Shown here in pieces: positions 29,652-64,000 of a stretch of DNA of 64,000 nt (the first letter of the stretch is position 1; every line of letters starts with the position of its first letter). The stretch lies in assembly GCA_910574455.1 (NCBI GenBank), contig CAJSYZ010000003.1, forward strand, positions 5,105,396 through 5,169,395, written 5' to 3'. The stretch is from Trichaptum fuscoviolaceum. Lineage: Eukaryota > Basidiomycota > Agaricomycetes > Hymenochaetales > Trichaptaceae. Under the pieces are notes generated by a model. The model worked only from the letters and a program-made list of their open reading frames with translations. It was not told the DNA's origin and made no database searches. The position numbers were made by a program, and so were the translations under genes.

Positions 29652-29905
29652 CCTCAGCTGTTTGGATTAATCCGGGGCCGTCAGCGACGCCACCTTGGAT
29701 TAATCCATTTGTGGATTAATCCGATAACAATTAGTATTATATTTGAATCTATTTTACATTTCTTCTATCTACTATATGGATTAATCCCTTACCTCAGATT
29801 AATCCCTTACCTTGGATTAATCCACACCGGGGATTAATCCCTTACCTTGGATTAATCCACATCGGGGACTAATCCCTTACCTAATTTTAATCCACACTAA
29901 GATTA
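29652..29905. repeat. Left GGATTAATCC element: inverted end plus minisatellite
   Basis: The first 52 bp (from ACCTCAGCTGTTTGGATTAA) are the inverted counterpart of 34655-34600, with few mismatches. They are followed by an array built on GGATTAATCCCTTACC (29775-29885), in which GGATTAATCC, itself a palindrome, recurs about every 17-26 bp. Confidence 0.8.
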
Positions 29906-35400: not shown

Positions 35401-35874
35401 TAATTATCTATTGAGACGTACGTATTGGTCATAGAGCAATACTGGGATCAGATCAATCGATCGGTATGCAGGCATACATTATCACTGTATTCATATAGTT
35501 TGAATCATGACTTCTGAATAACATGAGAATGCGTCGAGTGCATCAGATGAAAGGCATGAGAATCTAGATTCATTTGTATCTAGTATTCGAACAGACATTG
35601 TGTGATAGAAGTAGAAGATTATTGATTATTATCATTCACGACAGTACAGCAAAGCACAGATAGGAAGAGAGAAAAAGAGCATGAGAGAATGGAAGAGTCC
35701 GAAGTAGTGGCTTATGGAACGTTGGGTTTACTATCACCGATCTTGAAGGAGATGAGAGACAATATATTTCAAAGAGGAACGTAGACTCACAATTGCCTCC
35801 TTAGTGAACCTCCCCAATAGAATTTTCCGTGTATTGAAATGAGATCTAGCCTCCTATATATATGACGCTCAGAA
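35401..35874. other. AT-rich stretch with no gene
   Basis: No coding signal, hairpin or array is seen between the two minisatellites. Confidence 0.45.
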
Positions 35875-36485
35875 GTAACCGGTTACTCGCCAGTCACCGG
35901 TCACTCTTAATTCAGCCATTCTAGGGTTAGTTTGACTATGAGAACGGTCACCTTCCTATTTAGGCTCAGTCACTTTGTGGGAAAGTCGGTCACCTTCCTA
36001 TTTGGGGTCGGTCACTGGGTGTGGGAACGGTCACCTTCCTAATTGGGTTCAGTCACTTTGTGGGAAAGTCAGTCACCTTCCTAATTGGGTTCAGTCACTT
36101 TGTGGGGAAGTCAGTCACCTTCCTAATTAAGGTCAGTTACTTTGCGTGGGAACAGTCACCTTCCTATTTAGTCTGGTCACCTTCCTATATATATAACCGT
36201 GGATAGTACCTAGGTACTCGGTGGGTCACTGGGTCACTCCTAATCCACCTATATATAGTGCAACTAGGGTTAGCATAAAGGCAAAGTGGGTCACTTTCCT
36301 AATTAGAGTGGGTCACCTTCCTATTTGGGGTGGGTCACTTTGTGTGTGAATAGTCATCTTCTTATTTGAGGTGGGTCATCTTCTATTTTGGGGTGGGTCA
36401 CTGGGTCACCTTCCTTTTATAGTAGTGGGTCACTGGGTCACTTGCCTTTTATAGTAGTGGGTCACTGGGTCACCTTCTTGTTTAG
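35875..36485. repeat. GGTCACCTTCCTA minisatellite
   Basis: Around fifteen imperfect units whose core is GGTCACCTTCCTATTTGGG, alternating with (C/G)GGTCACTTTGTGGG. Unit lengths vary from about 20 to 45 bp. Sub-blocks repeat as pairs (35940-36130) and a terminal set ends in GTAGTGGGTCACTGGGTCAC (36415-36475). Confidence 0.85.
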
Positions 36486-36571
36486 TGTACATAACTGTCT
36501 ATTTTCTGAAGAACATGAAAGATTAGCCATATAAATAGAACAATAAGATTAAAAAAGTAAATATGGAATCA

Positions 36572-36809
36572 TTCAGATGAACAATGTTGGCTAAAAATAG
36601 TACACATCATTCAGCTGAACAATGAGAGCTAAAAATAGTGCAAACTGTTCAGCTGAACAATGAGAGCTAATAATAGTATACATCATTCAGCTGAACAATG
36701 AGAGCTAAAAATAGTACACATCATTCAGCTGAACAATGAGAGCTAATAATAGTGCAAACTGTTCAGCTGAACAATGAGAGCAAAAAATAGTACACATCAT
36801 TCAGCTGAA
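36572..36809. repeat. Seven 38-bp iterons carrying the palindrome TTCAGCTGAA
   Basis: Palindromes start at 36572 (one mismatch, TTCAGATGAA), 36610, 36648, 36686, 36724, 36762 and 36800: an exact 38-bp period. Two flank types alternate. Units at 36648 and 36762 are extended to the 14-bp perfect palindrome TGTTCAGCTGAACA; the others read CATTCAGCTGAACAATGAGA. The intervening text is AGCTAAAAATAGTACACAT or a variant. The array ends about 300 bp before the start codon of the ParB-like gene, on its promoter side. Confidence 0.92.
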
Positions 36810-36963
36810 CAATAAAGGTTATTATTAGATGACAATGATGCAATATGATGTAAAATGATGCAATCTGACAGCGTGTGAACCATCAAGAGATGTGATTGGC
36901 CAGTGATAATCTGTGTGAGAGAAAACTTTAATCTGATTAAAGAATAGCCCCTATACCAAAGAG

Positions 36964-36970
36964 TATATAA
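36964..36970 (+). promoter_or_regulatory. TATA box of the ParB-like gene
   Basis: TATATAA, about 85 bp upstream of the donor of a 5'-UTR intron (37055-37109, GTAAGT...TTCAG) and 150 bp upstream of the ATG. It lies between the palindrome array and the gene. Confidence 0.6.
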
Positions 36971-37115
36971 GGAGGTCAGATTTGAGTAAAATGCCCCAAC
37001 TACCACAGACCAACTCAACTCTACTAGTCTTATTTGCTCAACAAGCTATTTCCAGTAAGTCAATAATCTTCTATATTATATTTAATTTACTAACTTCTCT
37101 CTTTTTCAGACAACA

Positions 37116-38761
37116 ATGTCTGTTCAAAGCACTCTCAATCCAGCTGGCCTTATTAGCCAAGCCCACAGCAACTCCTTCAAGGCTTTGCATGCTCAGAACT
37201 CTATTCTTGGCAATGTCTATATTGACATCAGGAAGATGAAAAAGCATGAGGTCCAAAGACCCATTAATGAAAATCATGCCAAACTTCTGGGCAAACATCT
37301 GGTTAAACATCCAAATCATAGGAACAACATCAATAACTATCTCTTGGTTATCTGTCCTGGAGTTACAACAAAGGAACAATTTCAGCAGCTCCTTATCCCC
37401 AAGAAGATCAATGGATGTGACACAGACTTCTTTGACCTTGAAACTCAATCCATTGGTGGAGGTCACAGAGCTTATGCAGCTATCAATTATACATATGGCA
37501 GAGATGTTGACCCATACTGGATTGCCACTTTCTATATGGATGGTTTATCAAAGGAAGTCTACAGGTCAGTTTCTAACTGAATTTTCTTTATATTATTGCT
37601 TATAATTTTTAATAGATATATCTGTATCATGGATAATCTGGTTATGTCAGAAGAAACTAGAAAGGCAGCAAAGACAGGACAACTATTTGCTCTTCTGGCC
37701 TACAGAGTTGCAGAAATCCAGATGCAAAATCCTATATCTGATGCAGATATGGAGAAGTTAATTTTGGCCAACTACAAGCAAATGGAGTTCTTCCAGCAGG
37801 ATATGGAGACAGTGTTGGATCTTTTGAAGACATCAAATGGATTTATCAAGATTGTGCTGGATCTCAGTCTTATGCCTCTTTGGCAGTCATTGGGAAAGTC
37901 CCACTTTGACAAGATATTAAGAGCAGGAAGACAGATAGTAAGTTTTAGTTTATAGTCTCTATTTCTTAACTGACTTAATTTTATAGTTCTTCAAACCACT
38001 TCTCAAAGCTATCTTAGCAGATTATCAGTACTATGCTGATTCCACCAAGGCACCAACTGCTACTAGGCTTGACTTTATGAAAGATATAACCTTGGATCAT
38101 TGTCACTTTTCAACAAGAATGGACCCCAAAACATACACTTTGGCTCCTGGAGTCAAGCCTGTCAGCTCAGCAACTTGCTCAACACAGGCTCAATGGGATA
38201 AAACCAGAAACATTCTATCAGCTCTAGTCAACAATCCAACTGGCCTATATAGAATGGAAGAAGGACAACCACCCTACAGAAATCTTGTACCCTGTCATGC
38301 CTGTATTGTCTCCATAGACAATCCTGATTGCACCTTCTTCATTAACATATGTTGCTCAGTGAGTTATTAATTATTTCTTTTTGAGCTTTATACTTATTTA
38401 TAATATTTAGATTCTCTACTTCAGTGGTATTGCTTTTTCAGACCTCAAACTCTTCCTCCAAGCTGTGGACAGGAGAAATGTGCAGAATCACAGGCCAACT
38501 ACAAAGAACAGTACCCAATATCTGGACTTGGAAAATCAGATGAGGGTTATTCTGGCCTACAACACTCAAATTTATCATCAAGAAAATGGCAAAATTGACA
38601 TGGACAAATTGGATCTGGTCAGAATGTCACCAGAGCAACTACAATTTTTTTGGACCGTTACAGAAGAAGATTATGAAGAACTCTTGCAGTATATCTTCAG
38701 TAACTTCAACACCTTACAGACAGCCTACAACCAGATGTTGAAGAAGGAAGGGACTCTATAG
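37116..38761 (+). CDS. ParB/sulfiredoxin-fold-like protein of unknown function
   Basis: Exons 37116-37564, 37616-37937, 37987-38358 and 38411-38761 join in one frame to 497 residues with no lesion, unlike all its neighbours. Residues 35-185 follow the ParB N-terminal layout: VYIDIRKMKKHEVQRPINEN and a helix (AKLLGKHL), a beta strand YLLVICPG, then IGGGHRAYAAINY (114-125, box II-like, compare G-(E/H)RR-x-x-A in ParB), PYWIATFYMDGL, and ICIMDNLVMSEETRKAAKTG, equivalent to the ENxxRxxL helix. The remaining 300 residues are helical and unassigned, with short motifs LDHCHFSTRM and CHACIVSIDNPDC. Codon use is distinctly AT-rich. Introns have normal fungal signals, so it is a eukaryotic gene. The fold call is from motif order alone; function (DNA binding, CTPase or nuclease) is inference. 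Confidence 0.72.
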
Positions 38762-38789
38762 GTGTGCAGCCTGTCCCCATGGAGTTGGG

Positions 38790-39005
38790 GACTTCCCACG
38801 CTTTTCCGTAAAAGGACTCGGCTATGCTCGAAATGCCTCGGGTAGTGAAATGACTCGGCAAGTATGAGTTCCCTTGGCAAATCGTTCGGCTAGCAAAGTT
38901 CCCTTGGCAAGTCCCTCGGTTAGTAGGTGTTCCCTTGGCAAATCATTCGGCAAGTAGGTGTCCCCTCGGGTAGTGTCGAAATGACTCGGCTAATCGAGCA
39001 GTTAC
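38790..39005. repeat. CTCGGC/TTCCCTTGGCAA degenerate minisatellite
   Basis: Imperfect units alternate GACTCGGC(A/T)A with TTCCCTTGGCAAAT(C)(G/A)TTCGGC and AGTAGGTGT. The ACTCGGCT core recurs in the 43-bp satellite at 41.75-42.19 kb, so the KAP123 copy between them has related repeats on both sides. Confidence 0.65.
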
Positions 39006-61724: not shown

Positions 61725-62830
61725 TAACCCTATATATATGCCCGTCCCGAGTAGGGGGGGTACTCGGTCGTCAGGGTCTTGGTCGTCATCCAAATCCGGT
61801 CGGTCGCATCCATATATGGTCGGTCGCAGCCCAAAAATAGTTGGTCGCATCCAAATCGGGTCGGTCGCCTGGTCGTGGGAGTTGGTCGCTGGTCGCGAGA
61901 ATTGGTCGCTGGTCGTGGGAGTTGGTCGCCTGGTCGCATCCTAATTTGGCCGGTCACATATGTCTATAATTAGTTTGGCCCTCACATTGATAAAAATCTT
62001 AAGGCAAAATCGGAAAAATCAGCAATAAATCTGAATATTTTCGTTCCATTAGAACCAAAGTCAGGGTCCAGTCATAAATCAAAATTAAATGAATATTTTT
62101 CGTTCTAATGGAACGAGATTCAGGGTCCAGCCATAAATCAAATTTAAATGAATATTTTCGTTCTATTAGAATCAAAGTCAGAGTCCAGCCATAAATCAGA
62201 TTTAAATGAATATCTCGTTCTAATGGAATGAGATTCAGGGTCTAAGGGTCTAGTCTCAGGGTCTAAGGGATCTATTTGGTCCTATTTGTACCCCAGCCAT
62301 ATATAAGGAGCCAATTGTCTATTTTTGACTCTCTTTATATATATGCCCGCCCCGAGTAGGGGGGGTACTCGGTCGTCAGGGTCTTGGTCGTCGTCCAAAT
62401 CCGGTCGGTCGCATCCATATATGGTCGGTCGCAGCCCAAAAATAGTTGGTCGCATCCAAATCGGGTCGGTCGTCTGGTCGTGGGAGTTGGTCGCTGGTCG
62501 CGAGAATTGGTCGCTGGTCGCATCCTAATTTGGCCGGTTACATATGTCTATAATTAGTTTGGCCCTTACATTTGTGGAAATCATAAGTCAAAATCGGAAA
62601 AATCAGTAATAAATCTGAATATTTTTGTTCCATTAGAACCAAAGTCAGGGTCCAGTCATAAATCATAATTAAATGAATATTTTTCGTTCTAATGGAACAA
62701 GATTCAGGGTCCAGCCATAAATCAAATTTAAAGGAATATTTTCGTTCTATTAGAACCAAAGTCAGGGTCCAAAGTCTCAGGGTCCAATCTCATTCTAATA
62801 GAACGGAAAATAAGTTATAATTCAGTATAT
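61725..62830. repeat. Tandem telomere-associated repeat, two units
   Basis: Unit 1 (about 61725-62330) and unit 2 (about 62332-62830) both start TATATATATGCCCG(T/C)CCCGAGTAGGGGGGGTACT. Each holds a GGTCGC-rich half (GTTGGTCGCATCCAAATCGG; GGGAGTTGGTCGCTGGTCGC) and an AT-rich half built of about 60-bp sub-repeats (CAGGGTCCAGCCATAAATCA, TTAAATGAATATTTTCGTTC) with GTTCTAATGGAAC-type near-palindromes. Unit 2 lacks one GGTCGTGGGAGTT sub-repeat. Confidence 0.9.
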
Positions 62831-63861
62831 ATTTATTCTAATAGAATGAAAGTCAGAGTCTCAGAGTTCAAAGTCATTCTATTAGAAGGCTTGTTACGTA
62901 TTCTGACTGGATATATATTAGAGACTGTAATCTGACTAGTCTCAGCTATGACTTGCATCAGTGATTGTGAGGTACTGTCTGTCTGTTCTAAGTTACAATT
63001 ATGTTACGTATATCTAATCTGTTATAGCTATTATCAGAATGTCTAACCATTGATATAGTCAATACTACTGATGAATTAATAAGCTACTCCGCTAATTCAG
63101 ATGCACTTGTTATCAAGCTGAGTAAGAGTCAGATACGAATTAGATATGATAAACACAATATATGAGATCAGTCAGGCTTACTGAAGTACAGGCTGTAGAG
63201 CGTATAAGTCAGAGTTAAGTGACATGAAGCATATACTCTGTTCTGCTTATGATATAGTCTTAGTATGTAACCCGTATATTACAATTGAAGGCTGATGTTA
63301 AACAGTTGTGATTTAAAGCGTAGCAGAGACAACTGATGCAAAGTCAGTTCAATATATGTTGTTGCAGAGCGTAATAATGGAGCAAGTTAATGACTTGTTC
63401 TTGTCAGTCAGCTAACCCGATTGATCTTGTAGCTGTATTTAACTGTGTAACCCGTATTTTAATTGAATGAGTGAGATCCGATAATGAGCATGAATATGAG
63501 CGTAACCCGTCAAGTGTTAGTAACCCGAGTAGAAGTAGAAATGAAGTGATAACCCGATAAGATGTTAGTAACCCGTATAGATTATGAAGGGTATAAACCG
63601 ACAGACGTTAGTGACCCGGATTAATGACAAGTGTTAGTGACAGACGTTAGCAACCCGGGTTAGTGGCAGTACAGAGGGAAATGTTAGTAACACAGGTTAA
63701 TATGAAGTGTTAGTAGCATATGTTAACAAAATGAGTTAGTGACAGTGTTGATGTATAAATATAGTAATTGATTGAGATTAGATAATTGGATTTCGGAGTA
63801 GAGGATAATAATAGAAAGTAGGGTTATGATAGGGTTAATGTCAGTTAAGGTTAGTTCGTTT
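62831..63861. other. Distal subtelomere with scattered TTAGTAACCCG motifs
   Basis: No gene is seen. From about 63420 short TAACCCG and GTTAGTAACCCG motifs recur irregularly (near 63503, 63522, 63550, 63568, 63610), and from 63820 AGGGTTATGATAGGGTTAATG gives degenerate telomere repeats leading into the telomere. Confidence 0.65.
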
Positions 63862-63862
63862 G

Positions 63863-64000
63863 TAGGGTTAGGGTTAGGGTTAGGGTTAGGGTTAGGGTTA
63901 GGGTTAGGGTTAGGGTTAGGGTTAGGGTTAGGGTTAGGGTTAGGGTTAGGGTTAGGGTTAGGGTTAGGGTTAGGGTTAGGGTTAGGGTTAGGGTTAGGGT
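63863..64000 (+). repeat. Telomere, about 23 copies of TTAGGG
   Basis: Perfect TTAGGG repeats run to the last base with the G-rich strand 3', as at a right chromosome end. The phase starts TAGGGT at 63863. Length is limited by the window or assembly end. Confidence 0.98.

Follow-up and report, generated by a model that had tools for sequence, protein, structure and literature searches.

Seven palindromes follow one another at an exact 38-bp period upstream of a gene in the subtelomeric part of the window (the whole analysed stretch of DNA, 64,000 nucleotides). The array is real, conserved and regulatory-looking, and we give about an even chance to the explanation that it consists of operators for a dimeric, trans-acting regulator common to the promoters of subtelomeric modules. 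Because similar arrays also precede unrelated genes and the paralog of the window gene has none, the array looks, on comparison of the sequences, like a shared control element, that is, the mark of a module-promoter class rather than a private anchor of the window gene. The relevant features of the window are as follows.

35853..36183, + strand: preceding subtelomeric module, with the edge CCTATATATATGACGC, the palindrome AGTAACCGGTTACT (35874-35887) and 42-bp GGTCAC-type repeats, cut by the edge at 36184 (sequence, repeat scan, junction search)
36184..36480, + strand: the window gene's own module, with the proximal edge CCTATATATATAACCG and the palindrome AGTACCTAGGTACT (36205-36218), then the GGTCACC block common to C1, C2, C5, C10 and C11 (genome comparison)
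36568..36813, strand '.': putative operator array, seven 38-bp units each centred on TTCAGCTGAA, the first on TTCAGATGAA (tandem-repeat and palindrome analysis)
36964..36972, + strand: TATA box TATATAAGG, about 150 bp past the array (sequence)
37055..37109, + strand: probable 5'UTR intron, GTAAGT...TTTTTCAG (from sequence)
37116..37564, + strand: coding exon 1, N-terminal domain with GGGHR; a ParB/sulfiredoxin-like fold is predicted for the paralog-type exon 1 (gene model, structure model)
37616..37937, + strand: coding exon 2 (gene model)
37987..38358, + strand: coding exon 3 (gene model)
38411..38755, + strand: coding exon 4 as far as the break; a relative runs about 300 aa further (gene model, P0001 comparison)
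38756..38792, + strand: the next module's fixed edge CTATAGGTGTGCAGCCT and hairpin GTCCCCA/TGGGGAC (38773-38779, 38786-38792), truncating the window gene (sequence, genome comparison)
61729..63862, + strand: terminal module, with the edge CCTATATATATGCCCG and the hairpin CCGAGTA-GGGGGGG-TACTCGG, then telomere-associated repeats common to other chromosome ends (genome comparison)
63863..64000, + strand: telomere tract (TTAGGG)23 (tandem-repeat scan)

Geometry and conservation of the palindrome array

The geometry proposed in the original prediction holds in full. The tandem-repeat scan of the window delimits a repeat at 36568-36813 (period 38 bp, 6.5 copies) in which the cores start at 36572, 36610, 36648, 36686, 36724, 36762 and 36800 (the last extending to 36809), spaced by exactly 38 bp. 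Six of the seven cores are perfect copies of TTCAGCTGAA, the first being TTCAGATGAA, and two are lengthened, from 36646 and 36760, to the 14-bp palindrome TGTTCAGCTGAACA; the TATA box likewise lies where it had been placed. The six exact core sites in the window compare with 0.11 expected, a figure that overstates the surprise because the six sites, being tandem repeats, cannot be counted as independent. Among shuffled 38-mers, 3.1% contain a palindrome of at least 10 bp and 0.2% one of at least 14 bp.

Core conservation is a stronger argument for the array than this chance figure. Across the seven window units, the core deviates at 1 of 70 positions and the spacer at 31 of 196 (Fisher p 0.0005, with positions treated as independent), and ten randomly drawn columns equal the conservation of the core in 0.11% of draws. 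Among the five inner units, the counts are 0/50 and 14/140 (Fisher p 0.02), and random columns do as well in 6.4% of draws. When the three units of the array on C1, which were picked by exact core match, are added, the counts become 1/100 and 44/280, and the divergence between the window and C1 units is 0.014 in the core against 0.269 in the spacer; the contrast is weaker when the C1 units are left out. Homogenisation within a tandem array should affect core and spacer equally. The GC-centred core is carried by two arrays only, those of the window (C3) and C1, which may share a recent descent. The CANNTG at the centre of the palindrome would also suit an E-box for a bHLH factor. A further tandem array with a palindrome, GGATTAATCC, is found at 29777-29897 of the window, with 18- and 35-bp periods.

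Similar arrays before unrelated genes

In the 59.1-Mb genome, a search for pairs of TTCANNTGAA 18-40 bp apart returned 20 pairs (3 for the reversed-pattern control), 18 of which fall into five arrays (C1, C2, C3, i.e., the window, C10 and C11), the other two being on C5 and C8. Each of the five arrays comprises 3-9 sites and is preceded by a GGTCACC repeat block. The C1 array, with its GGTCACC block and three TTCAGCTGAA units, is located 2.8 kb from a contig end that bears a TTAGGG tract and is followed by a TATA box after about 60 bp, compared with about 150 bp in the window. The short ORF under this array, read with one intron (L016 7440-7795), shows no significant BLASTP match to the ParB/sulfiredoxin (Srx)-like family discussed below. 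The C11 array is TA-centred and has nine cores, two of them imperfect; altogether, 19 of 21 rows of TA-centred cores are exact, which is a description and not a test because these cores were collected by a near-core string search. The gene behind the C11 array has a weak OrsD match (E 0.012) and shares 74% identity over 478 aa with a C5 gene that contains OrsD (3.4e-8), DEAD (5.2e-8) and Helicase_C (7.4e-11) domains. The array pattern did not recover this C5 helicase gene, and the promoter of the C4 paralog of the window gene has no palindrome array, so that neither gene type always comes with an array. On C2, the array faces away from the nearest contig end, at a distance of 238 kb, so that a subtelomeric position cannot be demonstrated for every array in the assembly. 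A private pairing of one protein with one array is not supported by the evidence.

The window gene and its C4 paralog

The window gene had been described as an intact four-exon gene. The four coding exons stand, with the last ending at 38761 and a product of 497 aa in which GGGHR and IMDNLVMSEETRK, the two motifs originally named, are both found; intactness does not. The TAG stop codon (38759-38761) is contributed by the module edge that begins at 38756, a repeat edge (CTATAGGTGTGCAGCC) that is also present at 14 other genomic places. A predicted protein of 378 aa in a public collection, P0001 (source label 'lgn'), is 99% identical over its first 73 residues, which reach the last residues of the window protein, and extends about 300 aa beyond them. 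In P0001, the C4 paralog and P0002 alike, homology extends beyond the break point of the window gene. From these comparisons, the window gene is judged to be truncated, with its C-terminal part lost. The P0001-type tail was not found in the window, the fetched loci or the rest of the genome (a single match among the best candidates, namely the window itself). Relatives of the first exon under the same source label are P0003 (99%), P0004 (97%) and the paralog-type P0005 and P0006. Ten ORFs of the window, when scanned, revealed HEAT, Cse1, JmjN, zinc-finger, kinase and starch-synthase-type domains.

In the genome (59.1 Mb, 12 contigs), protein searches identified the window gene and a single paralog. 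The latter occupies 1.8-4.0 kb of contig C4, which starts with CCCTAA repeats, and is transcribed toward these repeats. The two genes are 27.5% identical over 465 codons, and their three introns occupy identical alignment columns with phases 2/0/0. The differences at codon positions 1, 2 and 3 (0.551/0.454/0.658) indicate protein-level constraint on the family. Like the window gene, the C4 paralog terminates at a module edge (position 1837). The C4 paralog lies within 4 kb of a telomere, and the 1.6 kb upstream of it carry no palindrome array (one palindrome of at least 10 bp, compared with 1.8 expected). Tandem repeats of other kinds, with units of 31, 73 and 148 bp, are present upstream of this gene; the 148-bp repeat (L014 4050-4405, 2.4 copies) is located inside its probable 5'UTR intron.

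Altogether, the family is apparently a small set of subtelomeric proteins of about 800 aa, in which a predicted ParB/sulfiredoxin-type domain at the N-terminus is accompanied by a conserved middle part, a proline-rich linker and a further tail. Keyword literature searches for ParB-like or ParB-domain proteins in basidiomycetes, fungal subtelomeres and eukaryotes gave no relevant report among the matches listed, and these searches together with the absence of family matches suggest that the family is, apparently, previously undescribed.

A possible ParB/sulfiredoxin-type fold

The AlphaFold2 model of the paralog-type exon 1 (P0005) has a pLDDT of 65.2 and a pTM of 0.61. In both structure searches started with this model, sulfiredoxin, Noc, ParB and KorB chains rank at the top, with a best Foldseek E of 3.1e-3; the plasmid repressor among them is KorB (8qa8, Foldseek ranks 7, 8 and 10). 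The guess of a ParB/Srx fold is supported by these matches, so that, with modest confidence, the N-terminal domain can be predicted to adopt a fold of the ParB/sulfiredoxin type. For the window copy, exons 1-2 were modelled with intron 1 translated along with them; this model reached a pLDDT of 35.7 and was discarded.

The profile search did not bear out membership in the ParB family. The ParB_N profile (PF02195) matches neither the protein nor any place in the genome at E <= 1, whereas 11 of 14 control genomes are positive. The spliced window protein has no Pfam match at E <= 10, residues 150-497 have none either, and NCBIfam, PDB (searched by sequence) and PHROGs yielded no significant or usable match to the family. 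Compared with P1 ParB alone, the family shows no BLASTP match at E <= 10 and an hhalign probability of 0.1, a comparison too shallow to decide the matter. ParB proteins carry the CTP-binding motif GERRxR, and sulfiredoxins GGCHR with its catalytic cysteine; in place of either motif, all six first-exon sequences of the family have GGGHR. The family shares with the superfamily (ParB, Noc, KorB, sulfiredoxin, SerK) a predicted strand-helix order, the structural matches and a G-x-H-R turn followed by a helix, and differs from it in the lack of a sequence-profile match, in the GGGHR motif and in being a fungal protein of about 800 aa with a proline-rich linker.

Stacked subtelomeric modules with hairpin edges

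The subtelomeric setting of the original prediction is confirmed by the telomere tract that closes the window. Beyond this tract (L015 1001 onward), the contig extends for 373 kb in all, starting with a long stretch of N, which makes this a scaffold-internal chromosome end, i.e., one that the scaffold joins to something else. The OrsD-helicase genes, the short introns and the TTAGGG repeats suggest that the DNA is from a basidiomycete. The window gene is part of a stack of modules whose edges, at 35853, 36184 and 38756, are all closely followed by an inverted repeat, and from 36184 onward the window conforms to a module class with a fixed CCTATATATAT edge, an inverted repeat and then the GGTCACC block. 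A search for CCTATATATAT in the fetched loci and the window gave 29 distinct junction strings. Edges with inverted repeats include 35853, 36184 and 61729 in the window, 1837 and 5606 in L014, and others in L022, L023, L025, L026, L028, L048, L059, L062 and elsewhere, and the flanks ahead of the edges differ between copies.

Covariation of the hairpin was analysed on a subset of 11 distinct sequences (the GCCCG kind and two with GACGCTTCC) that stand for 14 rows, with 15 rows excluded, a subset chosen after the hairpins had been seen. Five of the eight stem pairs are changed on both sides and 88.6% of the cells pair, compared with at most 50% in slid alignments. In 500 shuffles, the covariation score, the paired percentage and the number of both-side cells were never reached, whereas the number of both-side pairs was reached in 98 and the number of pair types in 360. 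Among the excluded rows, four have an imperfect palindrome and L027 is irregular. The pattern CCTATATATATRNCCG has 20 genomic matches, compared with none for its reversed control. Of these, 15 are no more than 42 kb away from a contig end, and every one of the 15 is oriented toward that end; the five farther inside contigs include the window's own two.

A second kind of module has the edge CTATAGGTGTGCAGCCT and a hairpin 17 nt from it; besides the window, it is represented by 13 canonical rows (L022, L041, L042, L044, L049, L050, L054, L056 and L059-L062, with an identical flank in L049 and L050) and one variant (L040). In the window, HEAT-repeat ORFs follow this edge. In L043 (1776 onward, C12 at about 107 kb), a module is cut and TTAGGG repeats directly follow the palindrome 107 kb inside the contig, so that the tract either is a telomere repeat of internal position or marks a junction made in scaffolding. 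The CCTATATATAT-edge modules are possibly a mobile or end-capturing element, and we take a retroelement of the Coprina/Penelope type to be one candidate reading of the edges. These edges with their covarying hairpins may be a more unusual phenomenon than the palindrome array.

Relation to known families

DUF3723 (PF12520) is a cargo gene family that, according to the available text of PMC12134995, is common in Starship elements and absent from the Gaeumannomyces ones. Residues 108-152 of P0003, around GGGHR, weakly match positions 50-92 of this profile (E 0.17); the scores of P0003 (11 bits) and P0004 (10.6 bits) fall short of the Pfam cut-off of 22. The profile does not match the spliced 497-aa window protein, and a genome search returned no match, as was equally the case for the control genomes. 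With respect to location near telomere repeats, the modules resemble the telomere-linked helicase and UTASa-UTASb subtelomeric elements of Ustilago (PMC10532341) and the RecQ genes near Ganoderma telomeres (PMC10817607), as far as the available parts of these sources describe them, and OrsD-helicase genes occur in the same module class here. The window gene differs in that it is not a helicase (no Pfam match for OrsD or DEAD/Helicase_C), and a palindrome array is not mentioned in the available text of either source.

Proposed operators of a shared regulator and alternative explanations

The repeated module in the window is ordered as a fixed proximal edge, a GGTCACC block, a palindrome array, a TATA promoter and a gene reading telomere-ward. 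Under the operator explanation, the palindromes, with the consensus [A/G]TTCA-NN-TGAAC, would be bound by a dimeric regulator that controls a number of module promoters in trans, holding them off or switching them jointly; the ParB/Srx protein, the zinc finger of the helicase gene and a host factor are candidates for this role. We infer that the palindromes are protein-binding sites that regulate transcription, with one factor for the GC- and TA-centred versions. The window copy would have shed its C-terminal 300 or so residues when a further module joined at 38756.

The original prediction comes through in part: the fold is supported with modest confidence, and the array is not private to the protein, as arrays also stand before unrelated genes. 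In a KorB/ParB-like version of self-binding, which sharpens the idea of the original prediction, a ParB/Srx-fold protein would bind the palindromes, repress its own and other palindrome-bearing genes and perhaps hold or cluster chromosome ends. The position of the array directly upstream of the window gene and the predicted resemblance to ParB, Noc and KorB are in line with this version, as is RK2 KorB, a ParB-family repressor that, in the available text of PMC11790492, silences promoters from operators lying upstream of them at short or long distance. The likeness to RK2 extends to operator-like, here putative, sites at several promoters and to the fold; the arrays of 3-9 putative sites and an operator sequence that is not KorB's set the present case apart. 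The paralog without an array, the array before the unrelated C1 ORF and the TA-centred form before a helicase-type gene all speak against self-binding, as do the lack of a ParB_N match and of an identified DNA-binding domain, and sulfiredoxin and free serine kinase, which have the same fold, are enzymes. On balance, we consider self-binding unlikely. A bolder version, in which telomere-directed mobile modules with a fixed edge and covarying hairpin are ruled by a module-encoded, nucleotide-gated ParB/Srx-fold regulator that controls both itself and a telomere-linked helicase by binding GTTCANNTGAAC arrays across chromosome ends, as a eukaryotic counterpart of KorB, appears quite improbable.

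The array could also be a by-product, a promoter segment duplicated in tandem by subtelomeric recombination, with no role and an incidental palindrome. The subtelomeres of this genome are rich in tandem repeats (30 rows in the window), the 3.1% of shuffled 38-mers with a palindrome of at least 10 bp gives incidental palindromes some room, and the contrast between core and spacer is weak among the five inner units; the contrast across all seven units (p 0.0005; 0.11% of random draws) and the existence of two arrays with different centres, the same half-site and the same place in the module make this origin rather unlikely. The regular spacing of sites next to a gene is reminiscent of plasmid iterons (the P1 record, RepA iterons), and modules that are repeated, stacked and truncated telomere-ward would suit a role in replication or end maintenance, in which the array would serve a telomere-directed mobile module as its origin or anchor. 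Such a role is nonetheless very improbable, given that the array lies between the repeat block and the TATA box (at the distances noted for the window and C1), that no replication protein is recognised in the module and that the paralog's module has no array.

Implications

Subtelomeric helicase modules are known from many fungi, and we know of no established switch that activates them upon telomere failure. A palindromic operator shared by different module genes would provide a concrete handle on module switching. The ParB/Srx fold is familiar mainly from sulfiredoxin and the partition proteins of bacteria; the present family, seen so far only at fungal chromosome ends, would add a eukaryotic branch.
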